From Actinoplanes sichuanensis (GTDB lineage: Bacteria > Actinomycetota > Actinomycetes > Mycobacteriales > Micromonosporaceae): DNA of 64,000 bases. Numbering within the stretch: the first letter of the stretch is position 1; each line of letters opens with the position of its first letter. Location: contig NZ_AP028461.1 in NCBI RefSeq assembly GCF_033097365.1, positions 10,319,501 to 10,383,500 on the forward strand, in the 5' to 3' direction. Made by a program: the position numbers and the translations under genes. Of this stretch, positions 12,901-28,773 are shown in pieces. Under the pieces are notes generated by a model that was not told where the DNA came from, searched no databases, and was given only the letters and a program-made list of their open reading frames with translations.

Positions 12901-13353
12901 ATGAACTTTCGTGAGATCTTGGATCGCATGCGGCCCGAACAATACGTCAAACCGGCGCCATCACCCAGGGTGATCGTTGCGGCTGTGATCATCACCGCCG
13001 GGCGGGTCCTCGCCTGTGAGCGCAGCTCCCCGCCGGAGGCGGCCGGGCGCTGGGAGTTCCCCGGCGGCAAGGTCGAGCCGGGGGAGACCGACCAGCAGGC
13101 GCTGGCCCGCGAATGTGCCGAGGAGCTGGGCGTACGCGTCGAGGTGGGCGCCCGGGTCGGCCCGGACGTGCCACTGGCCCACGGCCGGGCCGTGCTCCGG
13201 GTCTACGCCGTCGAACTGCTCGGCGGCGACGTCCCGGAGGCGCTGGAGCACCGCTCCATGCGCTGGCTGACCGTGGACCAGCTGGACACCGTCCCGTGGC
13301 TGCCCGCCGACGTACCGATCGTCGCCGAGCTGCCACCACTGCTCAAGGTTTAG
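12901..13353 (+). CDS. MutT-like NUDIX (deoxy)nucleoside triphosphate hydrolase
   Basis: This protein of up to 150 residues probably hydrolyses (damaged) nucleoside triphosphates. The NUDIX box is complete as GGKVEPGETDQQALARECAEELGV, shown here only to locate the Gly, REC and EE residues at about 57-79. The start is uncertain. The ATG at 12901 adds about 23 residues before the conserved VIVAAVIITAGRVLAC, and a GTG at 12970 is the alternative. Its stop codon overlaps the stop of the convergent acyl-CoA synthetase gene. Confidence 0.85.
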   Translation: MNFREILDRMRPEQYVKPAPSPRVIVAAVIITAGRVLACERSSPPEAAGRWEFPGGKVEPGETDQQALARECAEELGVRVEVGARVGPDVPLAHGRAVLRVYAVELLGGDVPEALEHRSMRWLTVDQLDTVPWLPADVPIVAELPPLLKV

Positions 13354-14885
13354 CTGTACTGCTTGCGCAGCTCCCGCTTCAGGACCTTCATGCTCGGGCC
13401 GAGCGGCAGCGACTCGGTGAACCGCACCTGACGCGGGTACTTGTGCTTGCCCAGCCGCTCCTTCGACCACTCGATCAGCTCGTCCGCGGCCAGGCCCTGG
13501 TCTTCGAGGACCACGACGGCGCAGATCTCCTCGCCCAGCGTCTCGTCGGCCACCCCGATCACCGCGACCTGCTGGATCGACGGGTGCCGGGCCAGGACCT
13601 CCTCCACCTCACGCGGGTAGACGTTGAAGCCGCCACGGATGATCAGGTCCTTGGTCCGGTCGACGATGCTGATGAAGCCCTGCTCGTCCTTCACCCCCAG
13701 GTCACCGGTCCGGAACCAGCCGTCGACCAGGGCCTCCGCGGTCGCCTCGGGTCGGTTCAGGTATCCGGCGAACACGTTGTGCCCGCGGATCACGATCTCA
13801 CCGAGCTCGCCGTCCGGCACGAACTCGATGCTCTCCGGCACCTCCGGGCGGGCGATCTCCACCTCGACACCCCAGATCGGGTGCCCGACCGTGCCGGGCT
13901 TCGCTCCGAACGAGGGCTGGTTGGTGGTCGCCGTGGGGGAGGTCTCGCTCAACCCGTACCCCTCCCAGATGGTCGAACCGAAAGCCGCCGCGAACTTCTC
14001 CAGGACCGCCACCGGAAGCGACGCGCCACCTGACACGCACAGCTTCAGCTGTGGCAGGCGGTCGGCCTTGGCCGCCGCCTCCAGGAGTCCGATGTACATG
14101 GTCGGCACGCCGTGGAAGATCGTGACGTTCTCCCGGATCATCAGCTCGATCGCCGCCTCACCGGTGAACCGCGGCAGCAGCACCAGCGTCCCGCCCAGCC
14201 GGAACGTCGCGTTCATGCCGACCGTCTGGCCGAACGTGTGGAACAGCGGCAGGCAGCCCATCACCACGTCGTCGCCGGTCAGCGGGTGCACGTCGAAGAC
14301 GTTGACGGCCGCGTTCATCACCAGGTTCAGGTGGGTGAGCAGGGCGCCCTTCGGCTTCCCGGTCGTGCCGCTGGTGTAGAGGATCACCGCGACGTCCTCG
14401 GCCTCGACCGTCGTGTAGGTCCGGACCGGCTCCAGGCCGACCGAGATCTGGTCCAGCCGCGGCGGATACTGCGGCAGACCCTCCGGCAGCGGGCCGACAT
14501 TGGCCAACGGCGTGCCGGTCGCGGCCGCCGCAGCCGCGCCGACCTGGAGGAACGCCGAATGCGTGACCAGCAGCTTGGCGCCGCTGTCGGACAGCACATA
14601 GCCGACCTCCTCGGCGTTGAGCAGCAGCGACACCGGCACGATCCGGGCGCCGACGGCCAGTGCGGCGTAGTAGACCCGGGGGAAGTCGGCGACGTTCGGG
14701 ATCATCACGGCCACCGTGTCGCCGGGGCCGATGCCCAATTCCTTCAGACCCGCGGCGTACGACCGGGTCTGCGCCCAAAGTTCACGATAGGGAATCCGGC
14801 CCCCGGCCTCGTCGACGATCGCTACCTTCTCCGGGTACCGACGGGCCGCCTCGGCTAGAACGGTGGCGAGGGAAAGCGTCGTCAT
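13350..14885 (-). CDS. Acyl-CoA synthetase (AMP-forming, FadD-like)
   Basis: This 511-residue ANL-superfamily enzyme would activate a carboxylic acid to its CoA thioester using ATP. It has the P-loop-like ILYTSGTTGKPKGALLTH, the adenylate-binding EGYGLSETSP, the hinge region GWFRTGDLG, and the catalytic lysine region near the end (SMKVLKRELRKQY). AGGGAG precedes the ATG at 14885. It is divergent from the TetR-aldehyde dehydrogenase-alcohol dehydrogenase unit and shares the operator-like dyad at 14944. It likely supplies the CoA ester for the catabolic genes downstream. Confidence 0.9.
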   Translation of the reverse strand: MTTLSLATVLAEAARRYPEKVAIVDEAGGRIPYRELWAQTRSYAAGLKELGIGPGDTVAVMIPNVADFPRVYYAALAVGARIVPVSLLLNAEEVGYVLSDSGAKLLVTHSAFLQVGAAAAAATGTPLANVGPLPEGLPQYPPRLDQISVGLEPVRTYTTVEAEDVAVILYTSGTTGKPKGALLTHLNLVMNAAVNVFDVHPLTGDDVVMGCLPLFHTFGQTVGMNATFRLGGTLVLLPRFTGEAAIELMIRENVTIFHGVPTMYIGLLEAAAKADRLPQLKLCVSGGASLPVAVLEKFAAAFGSTIWEGYGLSETSPTATTNQPSFGAKPGTVGHPIWGVEVEIARPEVPESIEFVPDGELGEIVIRGHNVFAGYLNRPEATAEALVDGWFRTGDLGVKDEQGFISIVDRTKDLIIRGGFNVYPREVEEVLARHPSIQQVAVIGVADETLGEEICAVVVLEDQGLAADELIEWSKERLGKHKYPRQVRFTESLPLGPSMKVLKRELRKQYS

Positions 14886-14943
14886 TACTGATCTCCCTTA
14901 GTGATGTACGTCGCAGCTGTGCTTAAACTAGCGGCGTAAGTTT

Positions 14944-14960
14944 TTACACGTCCAGTGTTG
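14944..14960. promoter_or_regulatory. Operator-like dyad between fadD-like and TetR genes
   Basis: TTACACGTCCAGTGTTG has ACAC/GTGT arms around a 5-base centre. It matches the perfect dyad at 28065-28081 at 12 of 17 positions, including TTACAC and AGTGT. It lies in the divergent promoter region of the acyl-CoA synthetase and TetR genes. Binding by the TetR product is inferred. Confidence 0.55.
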
Positions 14961-14987
14961 ATTTCGTCTTTCTTCAGGAGTTCTCCT

Positions 14988-15617
14988 ATGGCCCGCCCTC
15001 GGCAAGCCCTCCTCACCCGGGAGCGCATCGTCGAGGCGGCCGCCGCGCTCATCGACGCGGAAGGGATCGACGCCTGCTCGATGCGACGCCTCGCCACCGA
15101 ACTGGGCGTGCAGGGGCCGTCGCTCTACAACCACTTCGCCACCAAGGCGGAGATCGTCGACGCGGTCGCCGAGGCGGTCGTCGCCCAGGTGGACATCTCC
15201 GGCTTTCGGGGCAACGACTGGCGTGCGGGGCTGCGGATGTGGGCGAAGTCGTACCACGCCGTGCTCGCCGCACATCCGAACATCGTCCCGGTGCTGGCCA
15301 CCGGCCCCGGCCGTCGACCGGCCGGGCTGGCCATGGCCGAGGCCGTCTACGGCGCGCTGATCGAGGCCGGCTGGTCCCGGGCGCGGGCCACCCACATCGG
15401 CGCGCTGATGCGATACCTGATCACCGGCTCCGCGCTCGGGTCGTTCGCCCTCGGCTTCGAGGCCGACCCGGAGCTGTACGACCGCTTTCCACACCTGCAC
15501 CGGGCCCACGAACTCGCCGCGCATCGCGACGCCGTCGACGAGGGCGCATTCGAGCTCGGGCTCGACCTGCTGATCAACAGCCTTTCCGACCGTTACGACC
15601 AGGGGGTACGCCGATGA
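14988..15617 (+). CDS. TetR family regulator of the catabolic island
   Basis: This 209-residue regulator has a clear N-terminal helix-turn-helix ([30 protein letters not shown]), which resembles the TetR subgroup with a TetR_C-type ligand pocket. The ATG at 14988 follows AGGAG at seven-base spacing and gives [18 protein letters not shown]. An ATG at 14955 is unlikely because it adds a hydrophobic stub. Its stop overlaps the aldehyde dehydrogenase start as ATGA, so the three genes form one operon. The dyad at 14944 is the probable binding site. Confidence 0.87.
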
Positions 15618-17026
15618 CGTCGGTCTTCCGTGATGAGCACTGGATCGGCGGCGCCTACGTGCCGGCCGCCTCCGCAGAGCGCATCGGAGTCGAGAACCCG
15701 TACACCGAGGAGGTGTTCGGGCATGTGCCGGCCGGCACGGCCGAGGATGTCGACCTCGCCGTCTCCGCCGCCCGCGCCGCCTTCGACGGTTGGGCATTCG
15801 GCCTGACGCCCGCCGAGCGCGGCGCGGCCCTGACCCGGCTGCATCGGGCGCTGGCCGCGCGCGCCGACGAGATCGCCCGGATCGTCGGCCTCGAACTGGG
15901 CACCCCGCTCAAGATCGCCAAGGCGGTCCAGGCCGGCCTTCCCCTGACGGTCCTCGCCGGGTACGCGGAACTCGCGAACCAGCCGGCCCTGGAGGAGACG
16001 ATCGGCAACTCGCTGGTCGTCCACGAACCGATCGGTGTGGTCGGCGCGATCACCCCGTGGAACTATCCGCTGCATCAGGTCGTCGCCAAGGTCGGCGCGG
16101 CCCTGGCGGCCGGCTGCACGGTGGTCCTCAAGCCGAGCGAGCTGACCCCGCTCACCGCGTACCTGCTGGCCGACGCGTTCGCCGAAGCCGACCTGCCGCC
16201 AGGCGTGTTCAATCTGGTCACCGGCACCGGCCCGGCCGTCGGCTCGGCCATCGCCGGGCACCCCGGCATCGACATGGTGTCGTTCACCGGCTCCACCCGG
16301 ACCGGTGCGGCGATCAGCCACGCCGCCGCCGACCGGATCGCCAAGGTGTCGCTCGAACTCGGCGGCAAATCCGCCAACGTCATCCTCGACGACGCCGACG
16401 TGGTCAAAGCGGTCAAGGTCGGCGTCGGCAACGCGTTCCTCAACAGCGGCCAGACGTGTACGGCGTGGACCCGCATGCTCGTGCACCGCAGCCACTACGA
16501 CGAGGCGGTCGAACTGGCCGCCAAGACCGCCGCCGGATACACCGTGGGCGACCCGTTCGACCCGGCCACCCGCCTCGGACCGCTCGCCTCGGCGGCCCAG
16601 AAGGAACGCGTCCGCGGCTTCATCGAGCGCGCCACGGCCAGGCTCGTCGCCGGTGGCCTCGACGCTCCCGTTCCCGGCCAGGGGCACTTCGTCGCACCGA
16701 CCGTCTTCGCCGACGTCGATCCGGACAGTGAAATCGCCCAGGAGGAGATCTTCGGGCCGGTGCTGTCGATCATCCCGTTCGGCGACGACGACGAGGCGGT
16801 GGCGATCGCCAACAACTCGAAGTACGGGCTGGCCGGCGCCGTCTGGGGATCCGACGCGCGGGCGGTAGCGGTGGCCCGTCGGCTGCGCACCGGCGCGGTC
16901 GACGTCAACGGGGGCTCGTTCAACCCGTTCGCGCCGTTCGGCGGCTACAAGCAGTCAGGTATCGGTCGTGAGCTGGGCGCCTACGGGCTGACCGAGTTCC
17001 AGCAGGTGAAGGCGATTCAGCGATGA
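15614..17026 (+). CDS. NAD(P)-dependent aldehyde dehydrogenase
   Basis: This 470-residue member of the ALDH superfamily oxidises an aldehyde to the acid. Key residues are visible: Asn150 in TPWNYPLHQ, Glu248 in [13 protein letters not shown], and the catalytic Cys282 in [11 protein letters not shown]. The NAD-binding FTGSTRTG precedes them. Full length and the typical ending ([17 protein letters not shown]) show it is intact. Its ATG overlaps the TetR stop, and its own stop overlaps the alcohol dehydrogenase start by four bases, so translation is coupled. The substrate is unknown, but the alcohol dehydrogenase partner suggests alcohol to aldehyde to acid. Confidence 0.93.
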
Positions 17027-18111
17027 CCGCTTACATGACCGGCCTGGTCGTCCGGGACGCCGGCGCTCCCGCCGAACTCGCCGAACTCCGGCTGCCCGAG
17101 ATCGGTCCCGGCCAGGTCCGGGTGCGGGTGCGGGCCGCCGGGGTCTGCCACTCCGATCTGTCCATGGTGAACGGCACGCTGCGTCCGCCGCACCCGCTGA
17201 TCCTCGGGCACGAGGCGGCCGGTGAGGTGGTCGAGGTCGGCGAGCACGTCACCCGGGCCGCCGTCGGTGACCACGTGGTGCTGAACTGGCAGCCGGCCTG
17301 CCGCAACTGCTGGTACTGCGAACACGGCGAACCGTGGCTGTGCAGCACCTCGCACGGTGTGGCGGCACTGTCCAACGGCATCACCCTCGACGACGCACCG
17401 GTCCACGTGACACTCGGCGTGGGGGCGTTCGCCGAACAGGTCGTGGTGCCGGAGAACGCGGTCATCCCCGTACCGTCCGAACTCGGGTTCGATCTCGCCG
17501 CGCTGCTCGGGTGTGCGGTTCTGACCGGGACCGGTGCGGTGCGCAACACCGCCCGTGTCGCGCCCGGCGAATCGGTCGTGGTGATCGGGCTCGGTGGAGT
17601 CGGGCTGTCGGTCGTCACCGCGGCCCGGGCCGCCGGTGCGGCGCAGGTCATCGCGGTGGACGTCACCGAAGCCAAGAAGGGGCTCGCCGAAGCGGCCGGA
17701 GCCACCGACTTCGTGGTCTCGTCGGACAACCTGTCCAAGGACATCCGGGGCCGCACCGAGCGGCGCGGCGCCGACCACGCGATCGAATGTGTCGGGCGAG
17801 CCTCGACAATCCGGGCCGCGTGGCGGGCCACGAGGTCCGGCGGCCAGGTCACCGTGGTCGGCATGGGCGCGGCCGACGACATGGTCCAGTTGAGTGCGCT
17901 GGACATCTTCTCGTCGGCGCGAACCCTGCGGGCCTCGGTCTACGGGCAGGCCGACACCGACCTGGAGATCCCGGCCCTGGCCCGCGACGTGCTCGACGGC
18001 AAATTCACGCTCGACCACCTGATCACCGATCGCATCACGCTGGCCGACGTGCCGGCCGCCTTCGACCGGATGTCCCGAGGCGAGGGCGCCCGCTCGGTGG
18101 CCATCCTCTGA
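17023..18111 (+). CDS. Zinc-dependent alcohol dehydrogenase
   Basis: This 362-residue medium-chain dehydrogenase has catalytic zinc ligands Cys42 and His63 (GHEAAGEV). The structural zinc cysteines are in [15 protein letters not shown], at about 93, 96, 99 and 107. The Rossmann motif is [12 protein letters not shown]. It resembles class III-like or NDMA-dependent actinobacterial alcohol dehydrogenases. The start overlaps the aldehyde dehydrogenase stop (ATGA). Together the two would turn an alcohol into the acid that the divergent acyl-CoA synthetase can activate. Confidence 0.9.
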
Positions 18112-18118
18112 CCGGCAC

Positions 18119-18153
18119 CCGCCGCTGTCTCGCACTTCACGGGACGACGGCGG
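18119..18153 (+). terminator. Possible hairpin terminator after the alcohol dehydrogenase
   Basis: CCGCCG at 18119 pairs with CGGCGG at 18148, with further imperfect pairing inside. It begins eight bases after the stop codon. There is no U-run, which is common in high-GC actinobacteria. Confidence 0.4.
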
Positions 18154-18186
18154 ACCGGCCGGGCCGCGGTGCGATAGGAAAGAAGG

Positions 18187-18750
18187 ATGCGTCCGGAACC
18201 GGGTCAGGTGCTGCACTTCTCCGAGGATCCGACGATCACGCGGTTCGTGCCGCACGTCGCGGCCACCGCGCAACAGCCGGAGGCCTACGTCTGGGCGCTC
18301 GATCATGATCGGGCGCCCGACTACTGGTTCCCGCGGCAGTGCCCGCGCGCCCTCGCCTGGGTGCGGCCCGGCGTCACCACCGATCACGACCGGGACCGGA
18401 TCATCGGGGCGGGCTGCGGCGAACGCGTCCACGCGATCGAATACGCCTGGTGGGAGGCGCTGCGCACCACGAGGCTGTACGTGTACCGGCTCCCCGCCGG
18501 GCCGTTCCGCCCGTTCGGGGAGCCGGAGTCGCACGCGCACGTGGCCACCGAACCGGTCGAGCCGCTCGGCCCACCGGAACCGGTCGGCGACCTGATCGAA
18601 TGCCACGCCGCCGCCGGAATCCAGCTGCGTCTGCTCGACAACCTGTGGCCGTTCTGGGACCGGGTCACCGCCAGCACGGTCGCCTTCAGCGGCATCCGCC
18701 TCGGGAACGCGGCACCCCGCCCCGCGGCGGGCCACTCTCCGATGCCCTGA
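18187..18750 (+). CDS. DUF6886 family protein
   Basis: This 187-residue soluble protein resembles the DUF6886 family by its opening VLHFSEDPTITRFVPHVAAT and the segment VWALDHDRAPDYWFPRQCPRA. The family function is unknown. An AAGAAGG site precedes the ATG. Its final ten codons (after PRPAAG) lie inside the first unit of a 30-bp tandem repeat that continues beyond the stop, so the C-terminus appears to have been remodelled by repeat expansion. Confidence 0.75.
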   Translation: MRPEPGQVLHFSEDPTITRFVPHVAATAQQPEAYVWALDHDRAPDYWFPRQCPRALAWVRPGVTTDHDRDRIIGAGCGERVHAIEYAWWEALRTTRLYVYRLPAGPFRPFGEPESHAHVATEPVEPLGPPEPVGDLIECHAAAGIQLRLLDNLWPFWDRVTASTVAFSGIRLGNAAPRPAAGHSPMP

Positions 18751-18900
18751 TCTGCGGCGGGTCGCCCTTCGGCGTCCGGCTTTCCGGCGGGCCGCCGTTC
18801 GGCGTCCCACATTCCGGCGGGCCGCTCTTCGGCGCCCCGCCCTGCGGTGGACCGCTCTTCAGTGTCCTGATCTTCGGTGCGCCGTGCTCAGCGGGTGGCT
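18721..18900. repeat. 30-bp tandem repeat, about six units, bridging two gene ends
   Basis: Six consecutive 30-base units start at 18721, 18751, 18781, 18811, 18841 and 18871. The core is (C/T)CGGCGGGCCGCTCTTCGGC with drift, and the sixth unit is weakest. The first unit encodes the end of the DUF6886 protein. The last contains the stop codon of the convergent TetR gene at 18888. There are no spacers, so it is not a CRISPR array. Read in one frame the units would code decapeptides such as SGGPLFGAPP, but no start codon precedes them. Confidence 0.85.
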
Positions 18901-19490
18901 GAGGCGCCGGCCGGGTTGATCAGGGCGGTCACCATCCGGGCGAGTGCCGCGCGGGCGCTCTCCACCGGCAGGCCCATCGCGTCACGCCAGGTAGCCCACG
19001 TCGGCCACAGGCTCGCCGCGGTCAGCGCGTTGAGCAACTCCTCGTCACTGCCGATCTCGGCCGGGAAGGTGGAGGTCAACTCATCGCGTACCCGAGAGGT
19101 GTGCAGTTTGCGGTAACGCTGCAACCCGGCCGAGAACGGTTCCTTCAGCGCGGAGGCCCGCGCCGCGGGCCCGATCTCCTCCAGCAGGCGGGCCCGTTGA
19201 TGGCAGAACGCCTCGATCCGGTCGGCCAGCGGAAGATCCGCCGGAATCGGCCGGTACGACGCGTCGCGCTGCTCCAGGACACGCTGGCCACTGGCCGCCA
19301 TCAGCGCTTCCATGTCGGCGAAGTGGCTCCACAGGGCGCGCAGTGACACCCCGGCCAGCTTGGCCACCCGATCGGCGGTGGGGCGCATGTCCCCCTCGCC
19401 GATCAGCTGGAGATGCGCGTCGATGATCGCGTTGCGGGTCCGCTCGGACCGCGCGGTACGCCCGTCGACGCGCGTCGGTGGGTTGGTCAC
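18888..19490 (-). CDS. TetR/AcrR family regulator, last gene of the long operon
   Basis: This is a 200-residue regulator with an N-terminal helix-turn-helix ([29 protein letters not shown]). The GTG start overlaps the stop of the acyl-CoA dehydrogenase gene (GTGA), so it is translated with the catabolic operon. It may sense a CoA ester from the pathway and give feedback. Whether it or the TetR at 14988 binds the TTACAC-type dyads cannot be told from sequence. Confidence 0.85.
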
Positions 19491-20686
19491 GAACCACTCC
19501 GGTAACGCTTGAGCTCACGGTGGGCCAGCGAACGCTTGTGCACCTCGTCCGGCCCGTCGGCGAGTCGCAGCATACGGGCGCTGGCGAACAGTCCGGCAAG
19601 CGGGAAGTCCTGCCCGAGCCCGGCCGCCCCGTGCGTCTGGATCGCCTTGTCGACGATCCACTCCACGGTGGACGGCACCACGATCTTGATCGACTGGATC
19701 TCGGTGTGCGCGCCCTTGTTGCCGACCGTGTCCATCAGCCAGGCCGCCTTGAGAACCAGCAGCCGGGCCTGCTCGATCCGGACCCGGGACTCGGCGATCC
19801 AGTCCTGGATGACGCCCTGCTCGGCGAGCGGTTTGCCGAACGGGGTCCGGACCAGCGCCCGTGTGCACATCAGCTCCAGCGCCCGCTCGGCCATGCCGAT
19901 CAGCCGCATGCAGTGGTGGATCCGACCCGGCCCGAGACGAGCCTGGGAGATGGCGAAACCGCCGCCCTCCTCGCCGATCAGGTTGGTGGCCGGCACCCGT
20001 ACGTTCTCGAAGATCACCTCGGCGTGACCGCCGTGGTCGCCGTCGGTGTAGCCGAGCACCGTCATGCCCCGTTCGACAGTCACGCCGGGGGTGTCCCGCG
20101 GCACCAGGATCTGGCTCTGCTGCAGGTGCCGTGGCGCGTTCACGTCGGTCTTGCCCATCACGATGAAGATCTTGCAGTTCGGGTTCATCGCGCCGGTGAT
20201 GTAGAACTTGTGCCCGTTGATGACGTAGTCGTCACCGTCCCGGTCGATCCGGGTGCCGATGTTGGTGGCGTCCGACGAGGCGACCTGCGGCTCGGTCATC
20301 GCGAAGGCGGACCGGATCTCACCGGCCAGCAGCGGCTTGAGCCACTTCTCCTTCTGCTCGTCGGTGCCGAAGTCGGCCAGCACCTCCATGTTGCCGGTGT
20401 CCGGAGCAGCGCAGTTCAGCGCGGGTGGCGCCACCGCCGGGCTGCGGCCGGTGATCTCGGCCAGCGGCGCGTACTGCAGGTTGGTGAGGCCGGCGCCGTG
20501 GTCGCCGGGGAGGAAGAGGTTCCACAGACCGGCCTCCTTGGCGGCCGCCTTCAGGCCCTCCAGGGCGGCCGGGGGGCCCCAGCCGTCGCTGTGGAACGTG
20601 GCCTCCGCGGGATAGACGTGCTCGTCCATGAAGGCGAGTAGCCGCTTGCGGTAATCCTCGGTCTTCGCGTCGTACTCGAAGTCCAT
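19487..20686 (-). CDS. ACAD10/11-like acyl-CoA dehydrogenase
   Basis: This 399-residue flavoprotein has the acyl-CoA dehydrogenase fold ([16 protein letters not shown], then the C-terminal helical domain). At the position of the usual catalytic glutamate it has Asp377 in [11 protein letters not shown], the hallmark of ACAD10/ACAD11 and LvaC-type enzymes. Those enzymes act on 4-phosphorylated acyl-CoA to remove the 4-hydroxyl group. Its gene overlaps the kinase gene by one base (TGATG), the partner that would make such a substrate. The pair would convert 4-hydroxyacyl-CoA into a normal beta-oxidation intermediate. The substrate chain length is unknown. Confidence 0.9.
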
Positions 20687-21666
20687 CAGTGTCCTTCCAG
20701 CGCTCGGTGGCCCTGCTCGACCAGGGCGGGAACCATGGCCCCCACGGTGTCGAAGCCGGGGCCGACCGTCTGACCCTTGGTGTAACGGAAGTGCACGCCC
20801 TCGAGGATGACGGCGAGCTTGAACGCGGCGAAGCCGACGTACCAGTGCAGGTCGCTGACGTCACGCTTGCTGCGTTCGGCGTAGCGTGCGGCGATCTCGT
20901 CGAGCGTGGGGTGCCCGGGGATGTCGATCGGCGCGAACGGTTTGCCGTCGCGCTCCAACAGCGGACGGCCGGCGTAGATCTGCATCAACGCCAGGTCACT
21001 AAGCGGATCGCCCAGTGTGGACATCTCCCAGTCCAGCACCGCGTTGACCGCCAACTCGTCGCTGACCAGCACGTTGTCCAGGCGGAAGTCACCGTGCACG
21101 ACGGCGCCGGGGCCGCCGGCCGGGATGTCGGTGGCCAGCCGGGCGTGCAACTCGTCGATGCCGGAGAGCTCCCGGCTGCGGGACGCGTCGAGCTGCTGCT
21201 TCCACCGGCGGACCTGCCGGGCGTTGAAGCCCTCCGGCTTGCCGAAGTCACCGAGCCCGATCGCCGCCGGGTCCAGCGAGTGCAGATCGGCGAGCGTGTC
21301 GACGAGGGTGAACGTCAGCGCCCGAAAGTCGATCTTCTCGATCAGCGCGGCGTCCCGGTAGATGGTGCCGTCGACGTGCTCCATCAGGTAGAACGGCGCC
21401 CCGATGACCTCGGTGTCGGTGCAGAGTCGCACCGGTTTCGGCACCGGGAACCCGGCCTGGGAGAGGGCGTCGAGGACCTTGTGCTCCCGCACCATGTCGT
21501 GCGCGGTGGGCAGCACGTGCCCGAGTGGCGGCCGGCGAAGCACCCAGCGGTTGACGCCGTCGGTGACCGCGTAGGTCAGGTTCGACTTACCGCCCGCGAA
21601 CATCGTCCCGGATAGCGGCGGGCTGTCCAGATAGGCCTGGAGTTTCTCCAGGTCAAGGCCCCTCAC
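20686..21666 (-). CDS. APH-family acyl-CoA kinase (ACAD10/11 kinase-like phosphotransferase)
   Basis: This 326-residue protein has the aminoglycoside-phosphotransferase/choline-kinase fold. Catalytic residues are in [12 protein letters not shown] (His191, Asp193, Asn198) and the metal-binding Asp212 in [15 protein letters not shown]. This class forms the kinase half of ACAD10/11 and matches LvaA of the levulinate pathway, which phosphorylates the 4-hydroxyl of 4-hydroxyacyl-CoA. The GTG at 21666 overlaps the SDR stop (GTGA) and gives [15 protein letters not shown]. The frame also opens at 21711, inside the SDR gene, which is less likely. Antibiotic resistance is unlikely in this context. Confidence 0.88.
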
Positions 21667-22448
21667 TTGGACTCGAATCCGCGCTGGAGTTTGTTCATGC
21701 CCCCCAGCCAACGGTCCGGATCGCTCGCGCGCAAGCGGTAGTAGCCCTCGACCTCAGGATGCGGGAGGATCAAGAACCGGCCGTCGGTAAGCGTTCCGGC
21801 GACCAGGTCGGCCACCGCCTCCGGCGGCAGCGCGCCCTCGGCGAGCAGCGAGGCCGCGCCACTGCCGCGATCGTTTCCGCGGGTCAGCATGTCGGTGCGG
21901 ACACCCTGCGGGCACAGCGCCTGCACGATCAGACCCCGATGGGCGTACGTGGCCCGCAACCACTCCGCGTAGGCCAGAGCAGCGTGCTTCGTCACCGAGT
22001 AGGTGGCGCTCCCGAGCAGGGTCAGCAGACCGGCCGCGCTCACCGTGATCAGCAGCCGTTTCGGCTCACCGCTGTCCAGCCAGCGCGGCAGCAGCGCCCG
22101 GCTCACGTAGACGTGCGACATCACGTTGACCCCGAAGTCGCGCTGCCATTGGGCGTCCGGTGTCGTCTCGTCGCCGGCCGACAGCACCCCGGCGTTCGAG
22201 CAGAACAGGTCGATCCCGCCCAGTTCGCCCCAGGCCGTGTCGACGAGGTGCGCAACGTCCTGCTCACTGGCCGCGTCACCGGGCACCGCGAGCCCGCCGA
22301 TCTCACCGGCGACCGAGCGGGCCGCTTCCGCGTTCAGATCGTTGACCACGACCTTTGCGCCGTCGGCGGCGAACCGGCGGGCCAGTGCCGCCCCGATCCC
22401 GCCGCCCGCGCCCGTCACGACGACCCGCTTCACCGATCCGTTGGTCAC
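21663..22448 (-). CDS. SDR family oxidoreductase
   Basis: This 261-residue classical short-chain dehydrogenase has the cofactor motif TGAGGGIG at 12-19 and catalytic Ser137, Tyr150 and Lys154. An acidic residue after the second strand (NDLNAE) suggests NAD(H). The GTG start overlaps the preceding SDR stop. It probably oxidises or reduces a hydroxyl or keto intermediate of the pathway. The C-terminus (DPDRWLGGMNKLQRGF) is longer than in FabG. Confidence 0.88.
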   Translation of the reverse strand: MTNGSVKRVVVTGAGGGIGAALARRFAADGAKVVVNDLNAEAARSVAGEIGGLAVPGDAASEQDVAHLVDTAWGELGGIDLFCSNAGVLSAGDETTPDAQWQRDFGVNVMSHVYVSRALLPRWLDSGEPKRLLITVSAAGLLTLLGSATYSVTKHAALAYAEWLRATYAHRGLIVQALCPQGVRTDMLTRGNDRGSGAASLLAEGALPPEAVADLVAGTLTDGRFLILPHPEVEGYYRLRASDPDRWLGGMNKLQRGFESK

Positions 22449-23191
22449 TGGACGGCCCCGGTCAGGGTGAGCCCGCCGTCGATCACGATGGTCTGGCCGG
22501 TGATCCAGCCGGCCTCCGGTGAGCAGAGGAATGCCACGGTGCCGGCCACGTCATCGGTGTTGCCGAGCCGCTGGAGCGGATACGTGGCCGCCACCTCCGC
22601 CTCCCGCCCCTCGTAGAGGGCGGTGGCGAACCGCGTCTTCACGACCGCGGGCGCGACCGCGTTGACCCGGATCTTCGGGGCCAACTCGACCGCGAGCTCC
22701 TCGGTGAGGTGGATGAGGGCGGCCTTGGTGGTGCCGTAGAACGCGATCCCCGGCGCCGGGCGGACACCGGAGACCGACGAGATGTTGACGATCGAGCCGC
22801 CGGTCTCGGCCAGGCCACCGCGCAGCGCCTCCTGGATCCAGCCCAGCGTGCCGATCAGGTTGACCTCGACCATCTTGCGGGCGGCGTTCAGATCGAGGGT
22901 GGCCAGCGGGCCGTACGCCGGATTGATCCCGATGTTGTTGATCAGTGTGGTGACCGGCCCGAACCGCTCCCGCACCGCGTCGACCACGGCGGCCCGGTGC
23001 GCCGGATCGTCACCCTTGCCGGCCACACCGATCGCCACCTCGGGGCCGCCGAGCTCCTTCACGGCGGCCTCGAGGGCGTCGGCGTCACGTCCGGTGACGG
23101 CGACCTTCGTCCCCTGGGTGACGAACCGTTGCGCGATGGCGAACCCGATCCCCCGGCTTGCTCCGGTCACGATTGCTACCTGGTCAGCCAT
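22445..23191 (-). CDS. SDR family oxidoreductase, FabG-like
   Basis: This 248-residue enzyme has TGASRGIG at 9-16, NNIG at 85-88, a serine at 138-139, Tyr152 and Lys156. It ends in the FabG-like GWITGQTIVIDGG. It fits a 3-hydroxyacyl or 4-keto/4-hydroxyacyl-CoA dehydrogenase, the role of LvaD in the levulinate pathway. A strong AGGAGG precedes the ATG by seven bases. The gap to the upstream binding-protein gene is only 44 bp, so it likely belongs to the same transcript. Confidence 0.9.
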   Translation of the reverse strand: MADQVAIVTGASRGIGFAIAQRFVTQGTKVAVTGRDADALEAAVKELGGPEVAIGVAGKGDDPAHRAAVVDAVRERFGPVTTLINNIGINPAYGPLATLDLNAARKMVEVNLIGTLGWIQEALRGGLAETGGSIVNISSVSGVRPAPGIAFYGTTKAALIHLTEELAVELAPKIRVNAVAPAVVKTRFATALYEGREAEVAATYPLQRLGNTDDVAGTVAFLCSPEAGWITGQTIVIDGGLTLTGAVQ

Positions 23192-23235
23192 CGCTCAACC
23201 TCCTGAGTCGTGTTTTTGCAGTTTGTGTGCAGATA

Positions 23236-24510
23236 TTACGCGGTAGGCACGCCGCTCTGTGGCGGTGTCACGGCCTGCCCCTGGTATGCCGTGACCGGAC
23301 CGTCTCCGTCGTCGGTGGTGTACGGGGTGCCGAAGTACACGGCCTTGCCGTTCTCGACCTTGGTGAGCTGCTCGCCGGCGTACCCCGAGTGATCCTGTGC
23401 GGAGAAGCGCAGCGGCACCAGGCCCGGACCCTGGAAGCCGTTCTTCTGCACGGCCTCGGTGATCTTCTCGCGGGTCAGGTCCTTGCCGGCCGACTGGAGC
23501 GCCTGCACGAACAGGTAGCCCACCGACATGCCGTAGACGATGTTGTTGTCGAATTCGGCATTGCCGTTGTGCTCCGCGTTGACCTTCTTGAACAGCTGGA
23601 TCCACGGGTTGGCCTCGTCGGTGTTCAGCGGCAGGTAGTTGGCTGCCACGAGGCCCTCCATCAGGGGCGCGGCGGCACCCAGCGTCTTCCCGACGGTGGT
23701 CGGGTCGGCGCCGACGTTACTGACCACGAACTGCGGTTTGAACGCAATCTTCGCAGCGGTACCGATCGACAGGGCAGTGAAACCGGGCACAGTCGCCAGC
23801 ACGACCACCTCGCAGCCGGCCGCCTTGAGCGCGCCCATCTGCGGCCCGACGTTCGGGTTGCTGGTCACGTAGCTCTCCTTGGCCGCGACCGGGCCGAGGA
23901 TCTTCTGCACGCCCTCCAGGCTGTCCCGCCCGAAGTCGTCGTCCTGCCCGAGGAAGCAGGTCTTCTTTCCGGCCAGGTTCTCCTTGATGTAGGTGCCCAG
24001 GATCTTCCCCTCGACCGTGTAGTCCGGGTTGAAGCCGAACGTGCCCGGGTACTTGTCGGCCTGGTTCCAGCTCCGGCTGCCGCTGGCCACGAAGAGGTCG
24101 GGCACCCGGTTGGTCTTGAGGAAGTCGAGCACGCCGGTGTGCGTGGGCGTGCCGAGGCCGTTGAGGATCGCGAAGACCTTGTCCTGCAACACCAGCTCAC
24201 GCACCACGGTCTGGGTGTTCGCCGGGTTGTAGCCGTCATCCTTGATCTTGTAGGTGATCTTGCGGCCGTGCACGCCACCGTTCGCGTTGACGTAGTCGAA
24301 GTACGCCTTCGTCGCCGGCGCGATCTTCGAGTAGCCGCCCGCGGCCGGGCCGGTCAGTGGCATGTGCGTGCCGACCACGATCTCCGTGTCGGTCACCCCG
24401 GGCACGTTCGTGCTGCCGCTGGGAGTGCTGCCGCCGCCGTCGTTCGTGCAGCCGGCCGTGGCCGCGGCCAGCAGCACGACGGACAGAGCCGCCGTCGTTA
24501 TCCGTTTCAT
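23236..24510 (-). CDS. ABC transporter substrate-binding lipoprotein (branched-chain type)
   Basis: The 424-residue product is an extracytoplasmic solute-binding protein of the Leu/Ile/Val (LivJ/K, Peripla_BP_6) family. A lipoprotein signal ends in AAATAGC with Cys21 as the acylation site, followed by a Gly/Ser linker. The ligand domain opens VTDTEIVVGTHMPLTGPAAG. The start at 24510 has AGGAGG upstream, and a longer upstream frame is not coding. It would deliver the catabolic substrate to the permeases encoded just upstream. The true ligand is not predictable by eye. Confidence 0.92.
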   Translation of the reverse strand: MKRITTAALSVVLLAAATAGCTNDGGGSTPSGSTNVPGVTDTEIVVGTHMPLTGPAAGGYSKIAPATKAYFDYVNANGGVHGRKITYKIKDDGYNPANTQTVVRELVLQDKVFAILNGLGTPTHTGVLDFLKTNRVPDLFVASGSRSWNQADKYPGTFGFNPDYTVEGKILGTYIKENLAGKKTCFLGQDDDFGRDSLEGVQKILGPVAAKESYVTSNPNVGPQMGALKAAGCEVVVLATVPGFTALSIGTAAKIAFKPQFVVSNVGADPTTVGKTLGAAAPLMEGLVAANYLPLNTDEANPWIQLFKKVNAEHNGNAEFDNNIVYGMSVGYLFVQALQSAGKDLTREKITEAVQKNGFQGPGLVPLRFSAQDHSGYAGEQLTKVENGKAVYFGTPYTTDDGDGPVTAYQGQAVTPPQSGVPTA

Positions 24511-25532
24511 CGGTTCCTCCTGATCAGGCGTGAAATTCGGGATGGGATCGAAGCGAGGCCGCCCGGGGCGGCGAGCATGACGACGACGAGCACGACACCG
24601 AAGACGATCAGCGCGAGGTTGCCCTCCAACCGCTGCGAACCGGCCTGCTCGCCGAGGGACTGGGACAACGTGGGCAGCACGACCAGGAGCAGCGCGCCCC
24701 ACAATGCGCCGAACAGGCTCCCCAGCCCGCCGATCACGATCGCCATGACCAGGAACAGGGAGAGCGTCAACGGGAACGCGCCAGGCGACACGCTCTGCGC
24801 GAGGTAGGCGAAGAGAGCGCCGGACACCCCGGCGCAGGCGGCGCTCACCACGAAAGCCAGCACCTGGGTACGTGCGATGTTGATCCCGGCCAGCTTGGCG
24901 GCGGTCTCGTCGTCCCGGACCGCACGCAGGTCACGCCCGAACCGGCCGCGCACCAGCAGCGCCAGCAGCAGCACCACGACCAGCGCCGCGCTCCAGCACA
25001 GCCAGGCCTGCCACTGCTCCATCGGATACTGCTCGGGTGGCGGGTTCAGGTACACCGACAGGCCCTGATCGCTGTTGAACGTCTCGTCGAACGTGCTGGT
25101 CACCGACGGGACCACGATCGCCACGGCGAGCGTCAGCCCGGCCAGATAGGGACCGCGCAACCGGGCCGCGGCCAGGCCGATGATCGCGCCCAACAGGGTC
25201 GTGACCAGCACCGCGGCCGCGAAGCTGACCGGTAGGTTCTCCCATTTGTTCTGAGTCAGTGCCAGCGTGTAGGCGCCGGTGGCCATCAGTGCGCCGTGGC
25301 CCAGAGACAACTGACCGTTGAGTCCGGTCAGGACGGTCAGCCCGGCGGTCACACAGAAGTAGGCGCCCACCGTGGCCAGCTGATAGTTCCGGAACGGCGG
25401 CAGCACGTAGGTCAGCACGACCACCAGGACCGCGGCGGCCGCGATCACGATCACCGGATGCACGCGCCGGCGACGCTTCGCTTCGGGTAGTGCTTTCGCC
25501 CCGGTCTCCGGCCGGGCCTCGATCGCGGTCAT
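24507..25532 (-). CDS. Branched-chain-type ABC permease (LivM-like)
   Basis: This 341-residue inner-membrane permease has eight to ten hydrophobic segments and the signature LNGQLSLGHGALMATGAY. The EAA-like loop is DLRAVRDDETAAKLAGINIARTQ. A cytoplasmic basic stretch (EAKRRRRVHP) precedes the first helix. The stop and start overlap the neighbouring genes by four bases at both ends. The frame runs on upstream to 26585, but MTAIEARPETGAK at 25532 is the start. Confidence 0.92.
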   Translation of the reverse strand: MTAIEARPETGAKALPEAKRRRRVHPVIVIAAAAVLVVVLTYVLPPFRNYQLATVGAYFCVTAGLTVLTGLNGQLSLGHGALMATGAYTLALTQNKWENLPVSFAAAVLVTTLLGAIIGLAAARLRGPYLAGLTLAVAIVVPSVTSTFDETFNSDQGLSVYLNPPPEQYPMEQWQAWLCWSAALVVVLLLALLVRGRFGRDLRAVRDDETAAKLAGINIARTQVLAFVVSAACAGVSGALFAYLAQSVSPGAFPLTLSLFLVMAIVIGGLGSLFGALWGALLLVVLPTLSQSLGEQAGSQRLEGNLALIVFGVVLVVVMLAAPGGLASIPSRISRLIRRNR

Positions 25533-26407
25533 GCCACCCTCGCTTTCGAGCTGGAGAACAGCCCGCCCGGCCGGCCCAGCAGGACCACGACGAGCAGGGC
25601 GAGAACCGCCATCGGGGCGACCGTGACGTCGATGTATCCACTGACGTACGACAGCAGGACGCCGACGATCAGCCCACCCACGACCGCGCCGATCGGGCTG
25701 TCCAGGCCACCGACCACGGCCGCCGCGAACGCCGATACGAAGACCACGTCCATCGCCGTCGGATGCACACCCAGCTCGGTGGGGACGACCAGGATCGCGG
25801 CGAGTGAGCCCACCGCCGCCGCCAGCGCCCAGCCGAGCGTCAACATGCCGCCCACCGAAACCCCGAGCAGCCGGGACACGTCCGGAGCGAAGGCCGCCGC
25901 CCGCATTCGCAACCCGATGGCGGTACGGGTGAACAGCAGCGTGAGAGCGACGACCACGGTGCCCACCGCCGCGAAGACGAACAGGTCGTACCGGGACAGC
26001 ATCGCCACCCCACCGACCTCGAACGCGTCCCGGCTGAACGGCGTCGCGAACGGCAGGAACTCGTTGCCGTAGACGATGCCGAGCACGCCCTGGATGATCA
26101 GGACCAGCCCGAGCGCGACCACCACCCCGTTGAGCGGAGACGAGTGGTCGACGAACCGCATCACCACCCGCTCGACGGTGACGCCCAGCGCCAGCCCGGC
26201 CAGCAGCGCCGCCGCGAACCCCAGCCAGTACGAACCGGTGGCGTTCGTGACCGAGTACGCGACGTACACGGTGGACACCGCCATCGCGCCCTGTGCGAAG
26301 TTGACGATCCGGGCGGCCCGCCAGATGAGCACCAGGGCCAGCGCGAAAGCGGCATAGACCAGCCCGCGACTGAGCCCGTCGAAGGTGAGGTAGATGAACT
26401 CGCTCAT
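25529..26407 (-). CDS. Branched-chain-type ABC permease (LivH-like)
   Basis: This 292-residue permease has about eight membrane segments and the LivH hallmark IVNFAQGAMAVSTVYVAY. Other markers are ALGLVLIIQGVLGIVYGNE and the coupling region RAAAFAPDVSRLLGVSV. It pairs with the LivM-like subunit, and their genes overlap by four bases. Its ATG lies two bases after the ATPase gene stop. Confidence 0.92.
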   Translation of the reverse strand: MSEFIYLTFDGLSRGLVYAAFALALVLIWRAARIVNFAQGAMAVSTVYVAYSVTNATGSYWLGFAAALLAGLALGVTVERVVMRFVDHSSPLNGVVVALGLVLIIQGVLGIVYGNEFLPFATPFSRDAFEVGGVAMLSRYDLFVFAAVGTVVVALTLLFTRTAIGLRMRAAAFAPDVSRLLGVSVGGMLTLGWALAAAVGSLAAILVVPTELGVHPTAMDVVFVSAFAAAVVGGLDSPIGAVVGGLIVGVLLSYVSGYIDVTVAPMAVLALLVVVLLGRPGGLFSSSKARVA

Positions 26408-26409
26408 GT

Positions 26410-27129
26410 TCAGAACCCCAGGTAGGCGTGACGGAGGTCGGCGTCGTCACGGAGCACCGACGCCTTGTTGCGCACCACCACCCGGCCCAGCGAGAGCACC
26501 ACGCCCTCGTCGGCGATGGAGAGGGCGCTGCGTACGTTCTGCTCGACCAGCAGAACCGCGAGCCCGGTACGTTCCCGCAGGTCACGCAGCAGGGTCATGA
26601 TGTGCCGGGTCACCTTCGGCGCGAGGCCCAGGGACGGCTCGTCGAGCAGTAGCAACCGCGGCCGGCCGATCAGCGCCCGGCCGAGCGCGAGCATCTGCCG
26701 CTCGCCGCCGGACAACTGGTGCCCGGCGAAGGTCCGGCGTTGCGCCAGGGGCGGGAACAGGTCGTAGACCTCGTCGAGAGCGACTTTCGCGTCGGCCCGG
26801 TCGCGCCGCCACAGACCGCCGAGCCGCAGGTTCTCGTCGACGGTGAGCTCGGTGACCACGCCACGGCCCTCGGGGACGTGCGCGATGCCCCGCCGCACCA
26901 GATGCTCCACTTTGGTGCCGGCCAGATCGTCGCCGTCCAGCATGACCCGGCCGCGTGTGCTGCGGACCAGACCGGACAGAGTGCGCAGCAAAGTCGTCTT
27001 GCCGGCACCGTTCGCCCCGAGCACGGCGACGATCTCTCCCGGTTGGACGGTGAGGTCGACGTCATGCAGTACGGGCGCCGCGTCGTACCCGGCGGTCAGG
27101 CCTTCGACCTGCAGCAATGCGCCGCTCAT
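26410..27129 (-). CDS. ABC transporter ATP-binding protein (LivF-like)
   Basis: This 239-residue ATPase has a Walker A motif GANGAGKTTLLRTL, the signature QLSGGERQMLALGRAL, Walker B LLLLDEPSLGLAP and the H-loop region. The start at 27129 (MSGALLQVEGLTAG) has GGAGAAGG upstream, and an in-frame ATG at 27195 is less likely. It powers the importer together with the LivG-like ATPase. Confidence 0.92.
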   Translation of the reverse strand: MSGALLQVEGLTAGYDAAPVLHDVDLTVQPGEIVAVLGANGAGKTTLLRTLSGLVRSTRGRVMLDGDDLAGTKVEHLVRRGIAHVPEGRGVVTELTVDENLRLGGLWRRDRADAKVALDEVYDLFPPLAQRRTFAGHQLSGGERQMLALGRALIGRPRLLLLDEPSLGLAPKVTRHIMTLLRDLRERTGLAVLLVEQNVRSALSIADEGVVLSLGRVVVRNKASVLRDDADLRHAYLGF

Positions 27130-27302
27130 CGGCCTTCTCCGGCCGACTCCGGGGTATGCGTGATCATCGGCGCTCCTTCCTTCGGGGCCGCTCATAGACG
27201 TGTTTCGGGTATGCCGAAGAGAGCCGGGACACGACCGGCTTTCCGGATATGCGAAGTCAGAGGCCGGTCAGGCCCCCGTGACACAGATGAAGCTGAGGAA
27301 GA

Positions 27303-28010
27303 TCAGGCCGCCGCGCCGAGGTAGGCCTCGGTGACCTTGGGGTTCGCGCTGATCTCGGCTGGGGAGCCGATTGCGATCGGTTTTCCGAAGTCGAGGACCA
27401 GAATCTCGTCGCAGACCGACATCACCAGGTCCATGTGGTGCTCGACCAACAGCACGGTGGTGCCGGTCTCCTTGATCAAAGCGCCGAGCCAGGCGATCTC
27501 GTCGGCGTCCAGGCCGCCGGCCGGCTCGTCGAGCATCAGAATGCGCGGCTTCGCCACCAGGGCGCGAGCCAGCTCGATGCGTTTACGGATCGCGTATGGC
27601 AGTGCACCCGGATAGGCGCCCGCATAACGTGCGACACCGCACCGGTCCAGTGCGGCCAGCGCCTCGGACTCCGCGTGCCGGTGACGGGCGCCGACCATCA
27701 CGTTGTCCAGCACGGTCATGCCGGCGAACTGGCCGACCCCCTGAAGGGTCCGGGCGATGCCCAGACGGTTCAGGTGGTGTGGGCGGGGCCGCCACGGGCT
27801 CCCGTCCAGAGTGAGCGACCCGGAGGTCGGCTGCACGAAACCACAGATGACGTTGAAAAGGGTGGTCTTGCCCGCGCCGTTGGGCCCGATGACGCCGACG
27901 ATCCGTCCCGGCGCCACGCGCAGGGACACATTGTCGAGGGCGGTCAGGCCGCCGAAGCGGACCGTGATGTCGTGGAGCGCAAGCTCCTTGAGCTGGGAAT
28001 CTGTTGACAT
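27303..28010 (-). CDS. ABC transporter ATP-binding protein (LivG-like)
   Basis: This 235-residue ATPase has Walker A GPNGAGKTTLFNVICGF and Walker B RILMLDEPAGGL. Its signature is weakly conserved (ALPYAIRKRIELARAL), as is usual for LivG. It is the first gene of the long minus-strand operon, which runs to the TetR gene at 18888. A 173-bp gap separates it from the LivF-like gene and shows no gene. A perfect dyad at 28065 lies about 55 bp upstream of its ATG. Confidence 0.92.
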   Translation of the reverse strand: MSTDSQLKELALHDITVRFGGLTALDNVSLRVAPGRIVGVIGPNGAGKTTLFNVICGFVQPTSGSLTLDGSPWRPRPHHLNRLGIARTLQGVGQFAGMTVLDNVMVGARHRHAESEALAALDRCGVARYAGAYPGALPYAIRKRIELARALVAKPRILMLDEPAGGLDADEIAWLGALIKETGTTVLLVEHHMDLVMSVCDEILVLDFGKPIAIGSPAEISANPKVTEAYLGAAA

Positions 28011-28064: not shown

Positions 28065-28081
28065 TTACACTTGGAGTGTAA
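28065..28081. promoter_or_regulatory. Perfect operator-like dyad before the importer operon
   Basis: TTACACT-TGG-AGTGTAA is a perfect 7-bp-arm palindrome, 55 bp upstream of the LivG-like start. It shares TTACAC and AGTGT with the dyad at 14944 in the fadD-like/TetR promoter region. This suggests one TetR-type regulator controls both halves of the island. Binding is inferred. Confidence 0.65.
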
Positions 28082-28137: not shown

Positions 28138-28773
28138 TCAGGCCACTCCGGCCGGCCGGAACTGCACGCTGATCCGCGGTCCGACCGCTTTCGCCGTCTT
28201 CGGCACCGCGTGCTCCCAGGTGCGCTGACAGGACCCGCCCATCACGATCAGATCGCCGTGCCCGAGCGGGAACCGCAGCGTCTCGTGGCCACCGGCCCGT
28301 GGTCGAAGAAGCAGGTTGCGGGGCGACCCGAACGAGACGATGGCGACCATGGTGTCCTCGGTGGCCGACCGGCCGATGGTGTCACCGTGCCAGGCCACGC
28401 TGTCGCGGCCGTCGCGGTAGAGACACATGCCCGCGGTCACGAACTCCTCGCCCAACTCCTCGGCGTAGTGCCGGTTGAGCTCGCCCCGCGCCGCCACCAG
28501 GGCGGGATGTGGCAGTTGCTCCCGCGGGCCGAACCACCGCAGGAGCCGGGGGACGTCGACGACGTCGTCATACATCTTGCGCCGCTCGGCCCGCCAGTCG
28601 ATGCCGAGCAGGGTTTCGAAGACGGCGTCCGAGCCGTGCAGCCAGCCGGGCAGCACGTCGACCCACGCGCCGGCGGTGAGTCGATGCCGGGTGAGGCGGC
28701 CGGTCAAGGACGTGACCGCCTCAGCCGGCCCGGACATCAGGTCGAACATCGATGGCTGGTAAGCGCTGGTCAT
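28138..28773 (-). CDS. AlkB-like 2-oxoglutarate/Fe(II) dioxygenase
   Basis: This 211-residue enzyme would oxidatively dealkylate DNA or RNA bases. The iron ligands are His and Asp in VAWHGDTIG and His in TWEHAVPK, and the 2-oxoglutarate-binding arginines are in GPRISVQFRP. The nucleotide-recognition part contains YQPSMFDLM and the DWRAERRKMYD segment. It complements the Ogt and Ada-AlkA functions encoded at 1-3 kb. It is not part of the ABC operon, although it is on the same strand just upstream of that promoter. Confidence 0.9.
   Translation of the reverse strand: MTSAYQPSMFDLMSGPAEAVTSLTGRLTRHRLTAGAWVDVLPGWLHGSDAVFETLLGIDWRAERRKMYDDVVDVPRLLRWFGPREQLPHPALVAARGELNRHYAEELGEEFVTAGMCLYRDGRDSVAWHGDTIGRSATEDTMVAIVSFGSPRNLLLRPRAGGHETLRFPLGHGDLIVMGGSCQRTWEHAVPKTAKAVGPRISVQFRPAGVA

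Follow-up and report, generated by a model that had tools for sequence, protein, structure and literature searches.

Which compound would be served by a run of genes that joins a branched-chain-type importer to a kinase and an acyl-CoA dehydrogenase? This question was raised by an island of catabolic genes in Actinoplanes sichuanensis, in which a sequence-only reading had seen the logic of the levulinate/4-hydroxyacid pathway. We analyzed a window of 64,000 nucleotides (assembly GCF_033097365.1, contig NZ_AP028461.1, positions 10,319,501 to 10,383,500 of the forward strand; coordinates below are those of the window), lying at 10.32–10.38 Mb (G+C 70%) of a genome that is a single contig of 12.14 Mb. 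Ten of its genes probably form an inducible operon for importing and degrading carboxylic acids with an oxygen on carbon 4, whether they have it from the start or acquire it on the way. The evidence for this is directly observed: gene order and gene overlaps, diagnostic residues, a conserved operator, and a recurrent linkage of the importer with the kinase and dehydrogenase. These observations suggest that a known pathway exists here in a new form, coupled to an importer, for which only candidate substrates can be named.

The dehydrogenase (19487–20686, minus strand, 399 aa) was assigned from PDB scores and diagnostic residues. Its best PDB matches were ACAD11 (438 bits for 2wbi, then 432 and 430) and the putative acyl-CoA dehydrogenase (ACAD) 4hr3 (430 bits); the next match, the best ordinary ACAD, scored 155 bits. 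ACAD10/11 and LvaC are distinguished by R626, an HCMR motif (H634 and R637) and a catalytic D753, with R631 being common to ACADs (PMC12440821). The window protein carries R250, R255, H258, R261 and D377 at the positions of ACAD11 R626, R631, H634, R637 and D753 (numbers counted on the alignment with 8v3u; the printed chain numbering is one behind), its HCMR motif being H258-C-M-R261. All five residues were invariant in 17 aligned dehydrogenases, and C259 of the motif varied. The catalytic D377, within ADGPDEVH, stands where ordinary ACADs use Glu and was invariant in the aligned relatives. Among 26 ACAD matches in the host genome two stood out, at 915 and 395 bits, followed by one at 149. By its sequence the protein is a member of the ACAD10/11-LvaC class.

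The kinase (20686–21666, minus strand, 326 aa, GTG start) has an APH fold (Pfam APH, 176 bits) and matched 9o56 (225 bits), ACAD11 (184 and 180 bits) and 3dxp (161 bits) in the PDB, with the remaining APH proteins scoring at most 45. Its D193, N198 and R150 align with ACAD11 D220, N225 and R176 and were invariant in 16 aligned kinases. R60-E61, likewise invariant, is aligned with an Arg next to a Glu; counted with the same shift of one residue, this Arg is number 84 of ACAD11, and the Arg sought beside the alpha-C Glu is R86. Judged by the matching D193, N198 and R150, it is of the LvaA/ACAD11 4-hydroxyacyl-CoA kinase type. Bacterial homologs of both parts have replaced the ACAD10 domains (PMC11342911). 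The superfamily names given by Pfam and NCBIfam would on their own also suit an ordinary FadE next to an aminoglycoside-type or unrelated phosphotransferase, and NCBIfam returned no above-cut-off match for either protein. This is extremely unlikely in view of the diagnostic residues, the gap of 283 bits to ordinary ACADs, the ACAD11-type top PDB matches of the kinase and its APH(3') score of only 40 bits in NCBIfam. The diagnostic residues carried by both proteins and the score gap thus make the enzymatic logic that the sequence-only reading drew from lva and ACAD10/11 well supported by sequence.

Both genes lie in a co-directional run of ten on the minus strand, from 28010 to 18888, in the order LivG-LivF-LivH-LivM-SBP-SDRb-SDRa-APH-ACAD-TetR2, where SBP is a substrate-binding protein and SDR a short-chain dehydrogenase. 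Gene calls were based on reading frames, Pfam and NCBIfam, and several starts, including the kinase GTG at 21666 and that of LivM, were chosen by us. The run opens with a complete Liv/HAAT set of the ATP-binding cassette (ABC) type. This consists of a LivG-type ATPase (27303–28010; Pfam ABC_tran and BCA_ABC_TP_C; NCBIfam top match LivG, below cut-off), a LivF-type ATPase (26410–27129, alternative start 27195; ABC_tran; NCBIfam top match LivF, below cut-off), LivH-type (25529–26407) and LivM-type (24507–25532) permeases, both BPD_transp_2, and an SBP of 424 aa (23236–24510; Peripla_BP_6, 181 bits). SDRb (22445–23191; adh_short_C2) and SDRa (21663–22448; adh_short) follow, each with generic PDB matches, then the kinase, the dehydrogenase and the regulator TetR2 (18888–19490; TetR_N, 24.8 bits against a cut-off of 24). 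The one-base overlap of kinase and dehydrogenase seen earlier was confirmed as TGATG at 20686, and with the chosen starts there are four-base overlaps at SDRb/SDRa, SDRa/kinase and dehydrogenase/TetR2. All the genes previously named, that is the kinase, dehydrogenase, two SDRs, Liv importer, synthetase and alcohol/aldehyde dehydrogenase pair, were located by reading frames, Pfam and NCBIfam. They do not form the single unit of 13.4–28.0 kb that had been envisaged; strand and gene order divide them into three, namely the Liv-to-TetR2 run, TetR1 to DUF6886 on the opposite strand, and the ligase.

The island was also compared across genomes, a search for conserved neighborhoods of the kinase/dehydrogenase pair having been suggested for it. 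Layouts from codon-usage gene calls can miss or mislabel genes, so the counts were taken from tblastn layouts, for which we set the identity cut-offs. In same-genus genomes the SDRb-SDRa-APH-ACAD-TetR2 run was intact in 14 of 14, and preceded by the Liv genes in 13 (they are absent in L056). From a search with the SBP alone we took the best 80 of 571 confirmed matches, some of these loci being cut by contig or stretch ends. SBP, kinase and ACAD occurred together in 42 of the 80, and 41 of those 42 had all five Liv genes. A second genome set overlaps that of the 80 loci, and the counts of the two are not independent. Of 150 Micromonosporaceae genomes, 84 held the SBP at the cut-offs used, 118 the kinase and 79 both, within 10 kb of each other in 39; the kinase was present in 79/84 SBP-positive and 39/66 SBP-negative genomes (Fisher p = 2e-7, kinship uncorrected).

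The linkage also recurs in other families. Loci L185–L189 (families f38/f46) have much the same gene set in a different order: thiolase, ACAD, TetR, thioesterase, kinase, ACAD11-type dehydrogenase and ligase (in four of five), and, coming from the other side, the Liv genes, FabG, MDR, TetR and SDRb; in some of these loci single genes are absent or lie beyond the stretch. In L190 and L191 (family f28) the order differs again, and an alpha/beta hydrolase and a PucR-type regulator are present. When linkage to Liv genes was mapped on a tree of 61 dehydrogenase rows, a minimum of five changes of this label on supported branches was required. These rows are the usable dehydrogenases from 64 loci (one gene appears twice, as L063 and L212, and a contig edge cuts off L064), and the label was set by hand from the layouts, for L176–L184 because no SBP match was listed in their vicinity. 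Linkage of the importer and the kinase pair in separate places of the tree and in differing gene orders argues for more than local synteny, and agrees with the earlier proposal that the importer belongs with the pair: they share one operon, kept across genera. In related genera the island has gained a MaoC hydratase, an acetyl-CoA acyltransferase (thiolase), an ordinary ACAD and another ligase, as would be collected by a pathway that feeds beta-oxidation, the entry point that had been foreseen.

Upstream of LivG lies a candidate palindromic operator, TTACACT-NNN-AGTGTAA (28065–28081), which in alignments is conserved while its flanks diverge, in related genera too. With two mismatches or fewer it was present in 75 of 78 LivG upstream regions of the SBP-found set and in 18/22 of the second, overlapping set; L128, L046 and L050 were scored as misses though the site is present, LivG having been mis-delimited there. 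It has one site in the window and, within two mismatches, one place in the genome. As a control, 294 other 430-base stretches of the window were scanned, and the only one with a site overlaps the known site. Loci L062, L065, L070 and L071 retain the operator and TetR2, with no TetR1, alcohol dehydrogenase (ADH) or aldehyde dehydrogenase (ALDH) in the examined stretch. Since operator and TetR2 are both kept in loci without TetR1, TetR2 is the likely reader of the predicted operator before LivG.

In the pathway that we propose, the Liv-type importer would take up the acid and an acyl-CoA synthetase, local or another, would form its CoA ester. An SDR would interconvert the 4-oxo- and 4-hydroxyacyl-CoA, as LvaD does on levulinyl-CoA. 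Going by their residues, the APH kinase would phosphorylate the 4-hydroxyl of the acyl-CoA and the ACAD11-type dehydrogenase would eliminate the phosphate, leaving a 2-enoyl-CoA for beta-oxidation. TetR2, bound to the operator upstream of LivG, would keep the operon repressed as long as no acid or CoA-ester ligand is present.

Several observations weigh against this pathway. The reversed-pattern control of the genome search for the operator gave seven matches, so that the rarity of the operator proves nothing and its case rests on conservation. The kinase (at 44% identity or more) was out of reach in 38 of the 80 SBP loci, most of them from Micromonospora and nearly all from Micromonospora, Verrucosispora or Hamadaea; these retain the importer with TetR2 and, in nearly every case, the operator (one of them, L119, is on a contig that ends right after the SBP). 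Such loci imply that the importer is also of use where there is no kinase. L135, L146 and L158 have an ACAD11-type dehydrogenase in the Liv operon with no adjacent kinase. In a class-level set of 296 genomes, 64 contained the SBP and 181 contained ACAD11-type proteins, the two lying within 20 kb of each other in at least seven genomes outside the family (G212, G243, G274, G296, G351, G360 and G395). In other families, Liv SBP loci with neither kinase nor dehydrogenase nearby include L192, L193, L196 and L199–L204, and L197 has a kinase 46% identical near the SBP with no dehydrogenase on its short contig. No LvaB-like gene was found in the window run, where all genes are otherwise assigned and kinase and dehydrogenase overlap; no search with an LvaB sequence was made. 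Lastly, the top PDB sequence match of the SBP is 4n03, titled fatty acid ABC transporter SBP (Thermomonospora curvata), to which it is only 22–24% identical, and amino-acid binders match about equally well by fold.

The fold and sequence matches of the SBP span binders of fatty acids, aromatic acids and amino acids with close scores, and valine and leucine binders reach a similar Z among the fold matches. From these it could be argued that the Liv genes import amino acids or some other compound and are mere neighbors of the kinase and dehydrogenase, which would do housekeeping on stray 4-hydroxyacyl-CoAs, as ACAD10/11 may do in animals. This would agree with the SBP loci that have no kinase in reach, and with 26 of the 61 tree rows of ACAD11-type genes (an analyst-chosen set) that have no Liv neighbor. 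It is at odds with the shared operon and operator, and with a linkage that is seen in separate lineages in differing gene orders. The host also already owns a second module of this class with no Liv genes nearby, beside which the window module looks specialized. We judge the mere-neighbor explanation to be quite unlikely. Two further sources of substrate clues were set aside: the pocket residues for amino acids, as the Escherichia coli motif is not clearly shown even by valine-bound 3lkb in the alignment, and the SDRs and ligase, whose PDB matches were too generic.

The sequence-only reading had also placed an alcohol-to-acid module and a ligase in the pathway. This was only partly supported: the genes are present, in separate units. 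The AMP-forming acyl-CoA synthetase (ligase; 13350–14885, minus strand; Pfam AMP-binding, 309 bits) stands alone and is divergent from TetR1 (14988–15617, plus strand; TetR_N), which is followed on the same strand by ALDH (15614–17026; Aldedh, 530 bits), ADH (17023–18111, zinc-dependent; ADH_N and ADH_zinc_N) and a DUF6886 protein (18187–18750; DUF6886, 227 bits). The region between TetR1 and the ligase (14886–14987) holds a different conserved stretch, unlike the operator in sequence and common to five of eight aligned rows. In the 42 kinase-positive loci ADH and ALDH were found together in 22, the ligase in 13 and DUF6886 in 20. The ADH/ALDH/ligase part, with a TetR of its own, is therefore optional, consisting of separate and often absent units, and the DUF6886 protein is probably a passenger. 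Just upstream of LivG is a 2OG-Fe(II) oxygenase gene (28138–28773) that Actinoplanes-type genomes retain (its protein cluster has 15 members, that of the window among them) and that cannot be clearly tied to the pathway. The window gave no matches in Rfam and tRNA scans.

Which 4-oxygenated acid the operon serves was considered through two kinds of food. A narrower version of the proposed pathway, possible but doubtful, has cutin and suberin hydroxy fatty acids as the food. By this account, which we hold with the same reserve in each of its steps, a secreted cutinase/PETase-like esterase might free the acids, the Liv importer might take them up and ADH/ALDH might oxidize the end hydroxyl; rounds of beta-oxidation might then turn an even-carbon mid-chain hydroxyl into a 4-hydroxyl, to be removed by the kinase and dehydrogenase. 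It would be favored by the fatty-acid title of the top PDB match of the SBP, by the ADH+ALDH pair in 22/42 kinase-positive loci, and by a PF12740 PETase-like gene upstream of LivG in 34 of the 80 SBP loci, some with an ACAD pair between; such a gene also adjoins LivG in L071. However, the PETase-like gene was found in 2/42 kinase-positive and 32/38 kinase-negative loci, meaning that it goes with loci without the kinase. It also lies upstream of the operator, outside the operon, and could be explained by synteny within a single clade, and the host has four strong PF12740 genes, none of which is near the island. Across L123–L162 a PETase/cutinase-like gene, sometimes with an ACAD pair, is found upstream of LivG, mostly in Micromonospora-type loci without the kinase.

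The other food, which strikes us as rather unlikely, would be levulinic or other 4-oxo acids, coming from lignocellulose or from the last piece of natural rubber. On the rubber route, likewise rather unlikely, oligo-isoprenoid keto-acids cut from the acid end would leave 4-oxopentanoyl (levulinyl)-CoA, an SDR would reduce this, and the kinase and dehydrogenase would convert it to 2-pentenoyl-CoA. That levulinyl-CoA is the end product of rubber catabolism is expected, as a deduction from chemistry. The island is present in a genome that is very probably that of Actinoplanes sp. OR16, a proven rubber degrader (PMC7413915). Of 19 lcp-positive genomes, 17 had the SBP and 13 the linked island, the SBP overall being in 84/150 (Fisher p = 0.002, kinship uncorrected). 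Of 71 lcp regions, examined as stretches of about 19.5 kb around the gene, three (L225, L229 and L270) hold an ACAD11-type dehydrogenase and a kinase, where 0.36 are expected (P = 0.006) assuming two such genes per 8 Mb. The second module of the host begins 8 kb after an lcp1-lcp2-oxiB-oxiA operon. On the other side, the window island is not near lcp, 68 of the 71 lcp regions lack the kinase pair and 67/84 genomes with the SBP gave no lcp match at the cut-off used. This last count gave no support to the idea that the window island mainly serves rubber.

The rubber-degradation operon of the host, lcp1-lcp2-oxiB-oxiA-like, is at L211:6354–11421. The lcp-adjoining dehydrogenase and kinase genes are at L225:14744–16976, L229:12629–14929 and L270:17242 to about 19500. 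The dehydrogenase of L225 has RLGPARLTHCMR as its motif and retains the catalytic Asp. A reverse-order ACAD-kinase fusion in L229 was rejected, a frame shift near the end of the dehydrogenase only mimicking a fusion. A different Liv-type importer occurs near lcp in 8 of the 71 regions (L216, L217, L218, L232, L235, L247, L264 and L278). For Dactylosporangium, a published figure legend gives LivG, LivH, SBP, ACAD, TetRs and an SDR beside lcp, and no kinase (PMC8538451).

The kinase and phosphate-eliminating ACAD route was assigned to the mammalian enzymes only in 2024–2025 (PMC11342911, PMC12440821), and P. putida is the bacterial model in the literature consulted. If many soil actinomycetes share a conserved operon that pairs this route with an importer, the natural substrate could be approached directly by experiment, through SBP binding and TetR2 induction. 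The lcp neighborhoods, for their part, hint at how the degradation of rubber might end, in a way that can be tested. It is a speculative and unlikely extension that importer-coupled ACAD11-type chemistry might be an actinomycete exit step for natural polymers (polyester hydroxy acids and the levulinyl-CoA stub of rubber), with the window operon as an uptake-and-exit module and the lcp-side pairs of L225, L229 and L270 as the missing last step for polyisoprene.

Among the open-access publications listed by our searches, none was found that describes a Liv importer next to genes of lvaA/lvaC type in an actinomycete, and the known systems each share part of the island. With HAAT/Liv importers it has in common the complete gene set, its SBP being only 22–24% identical to 4n03. 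The mammalian ACAD10 and ACAD11 join in one chain a kinase and an ACAD that belong to the same two classes and agree in their catalytic and phosphate-binding residues, whereas the window has two separate overlapping genes, with the importer and a regulator in the operon. The second ACAD11-type module of the host (L212 580–4935, at about 2.282–2.286 Mb) consists of a His-phosphatase, kinase, SDR, SDR and ACAD. Compared with the window proteins its dehydrogenase is about 50% and its kinase 39% identical, its HCMR motif has A for C, and there are no Liv genes in the stretch. Its His-phosphatase adjoins the kinase as in the P. citronellolis layout, so it is nearer to that lva arrangement than the window operon is.

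The closest comparison is with lva itself, the Lva proteins being compared by published description and residues rather than by sequence identity. In P. putida levulinate is processed by LvaE, LvaD, LvaA with LvaB, and LvaC in sequence, under the activator LvaR and with the ActP-like symporter LvaG (PMC9399607, PMC6692424). Like the island, the lva regions of P. putida KT2440 (lvaABCDEFG) and P. citronellolis group a kinase of LvaA type and a dehydrogenase of LvaC type with an SDR and a CoA ligase, and that of P. citronellolis likewise lacks lvaB (PMC9399607/PMC6692424). Where lva has the ActP-like symporter LvaG and LvaF, the window has a Liv-type ABC importer; where lva has the activator LvaR, the island has TetR regulators; and the window has two SDRs and no gene between kinase and dehydrogenase, with its ligase in a separate unit. 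Neither an LvaR activator nor the LvaF/LvaG symporter was found in the window island, the rest of the genome not having been searched. The window operon would be expected to function along the lines of lva, but with LvaB, symporter and activator missing from the island, and with a Liv importer, a TetR and a second SDR in addition, we class it as a variant of the pathway and not as an lva operon.

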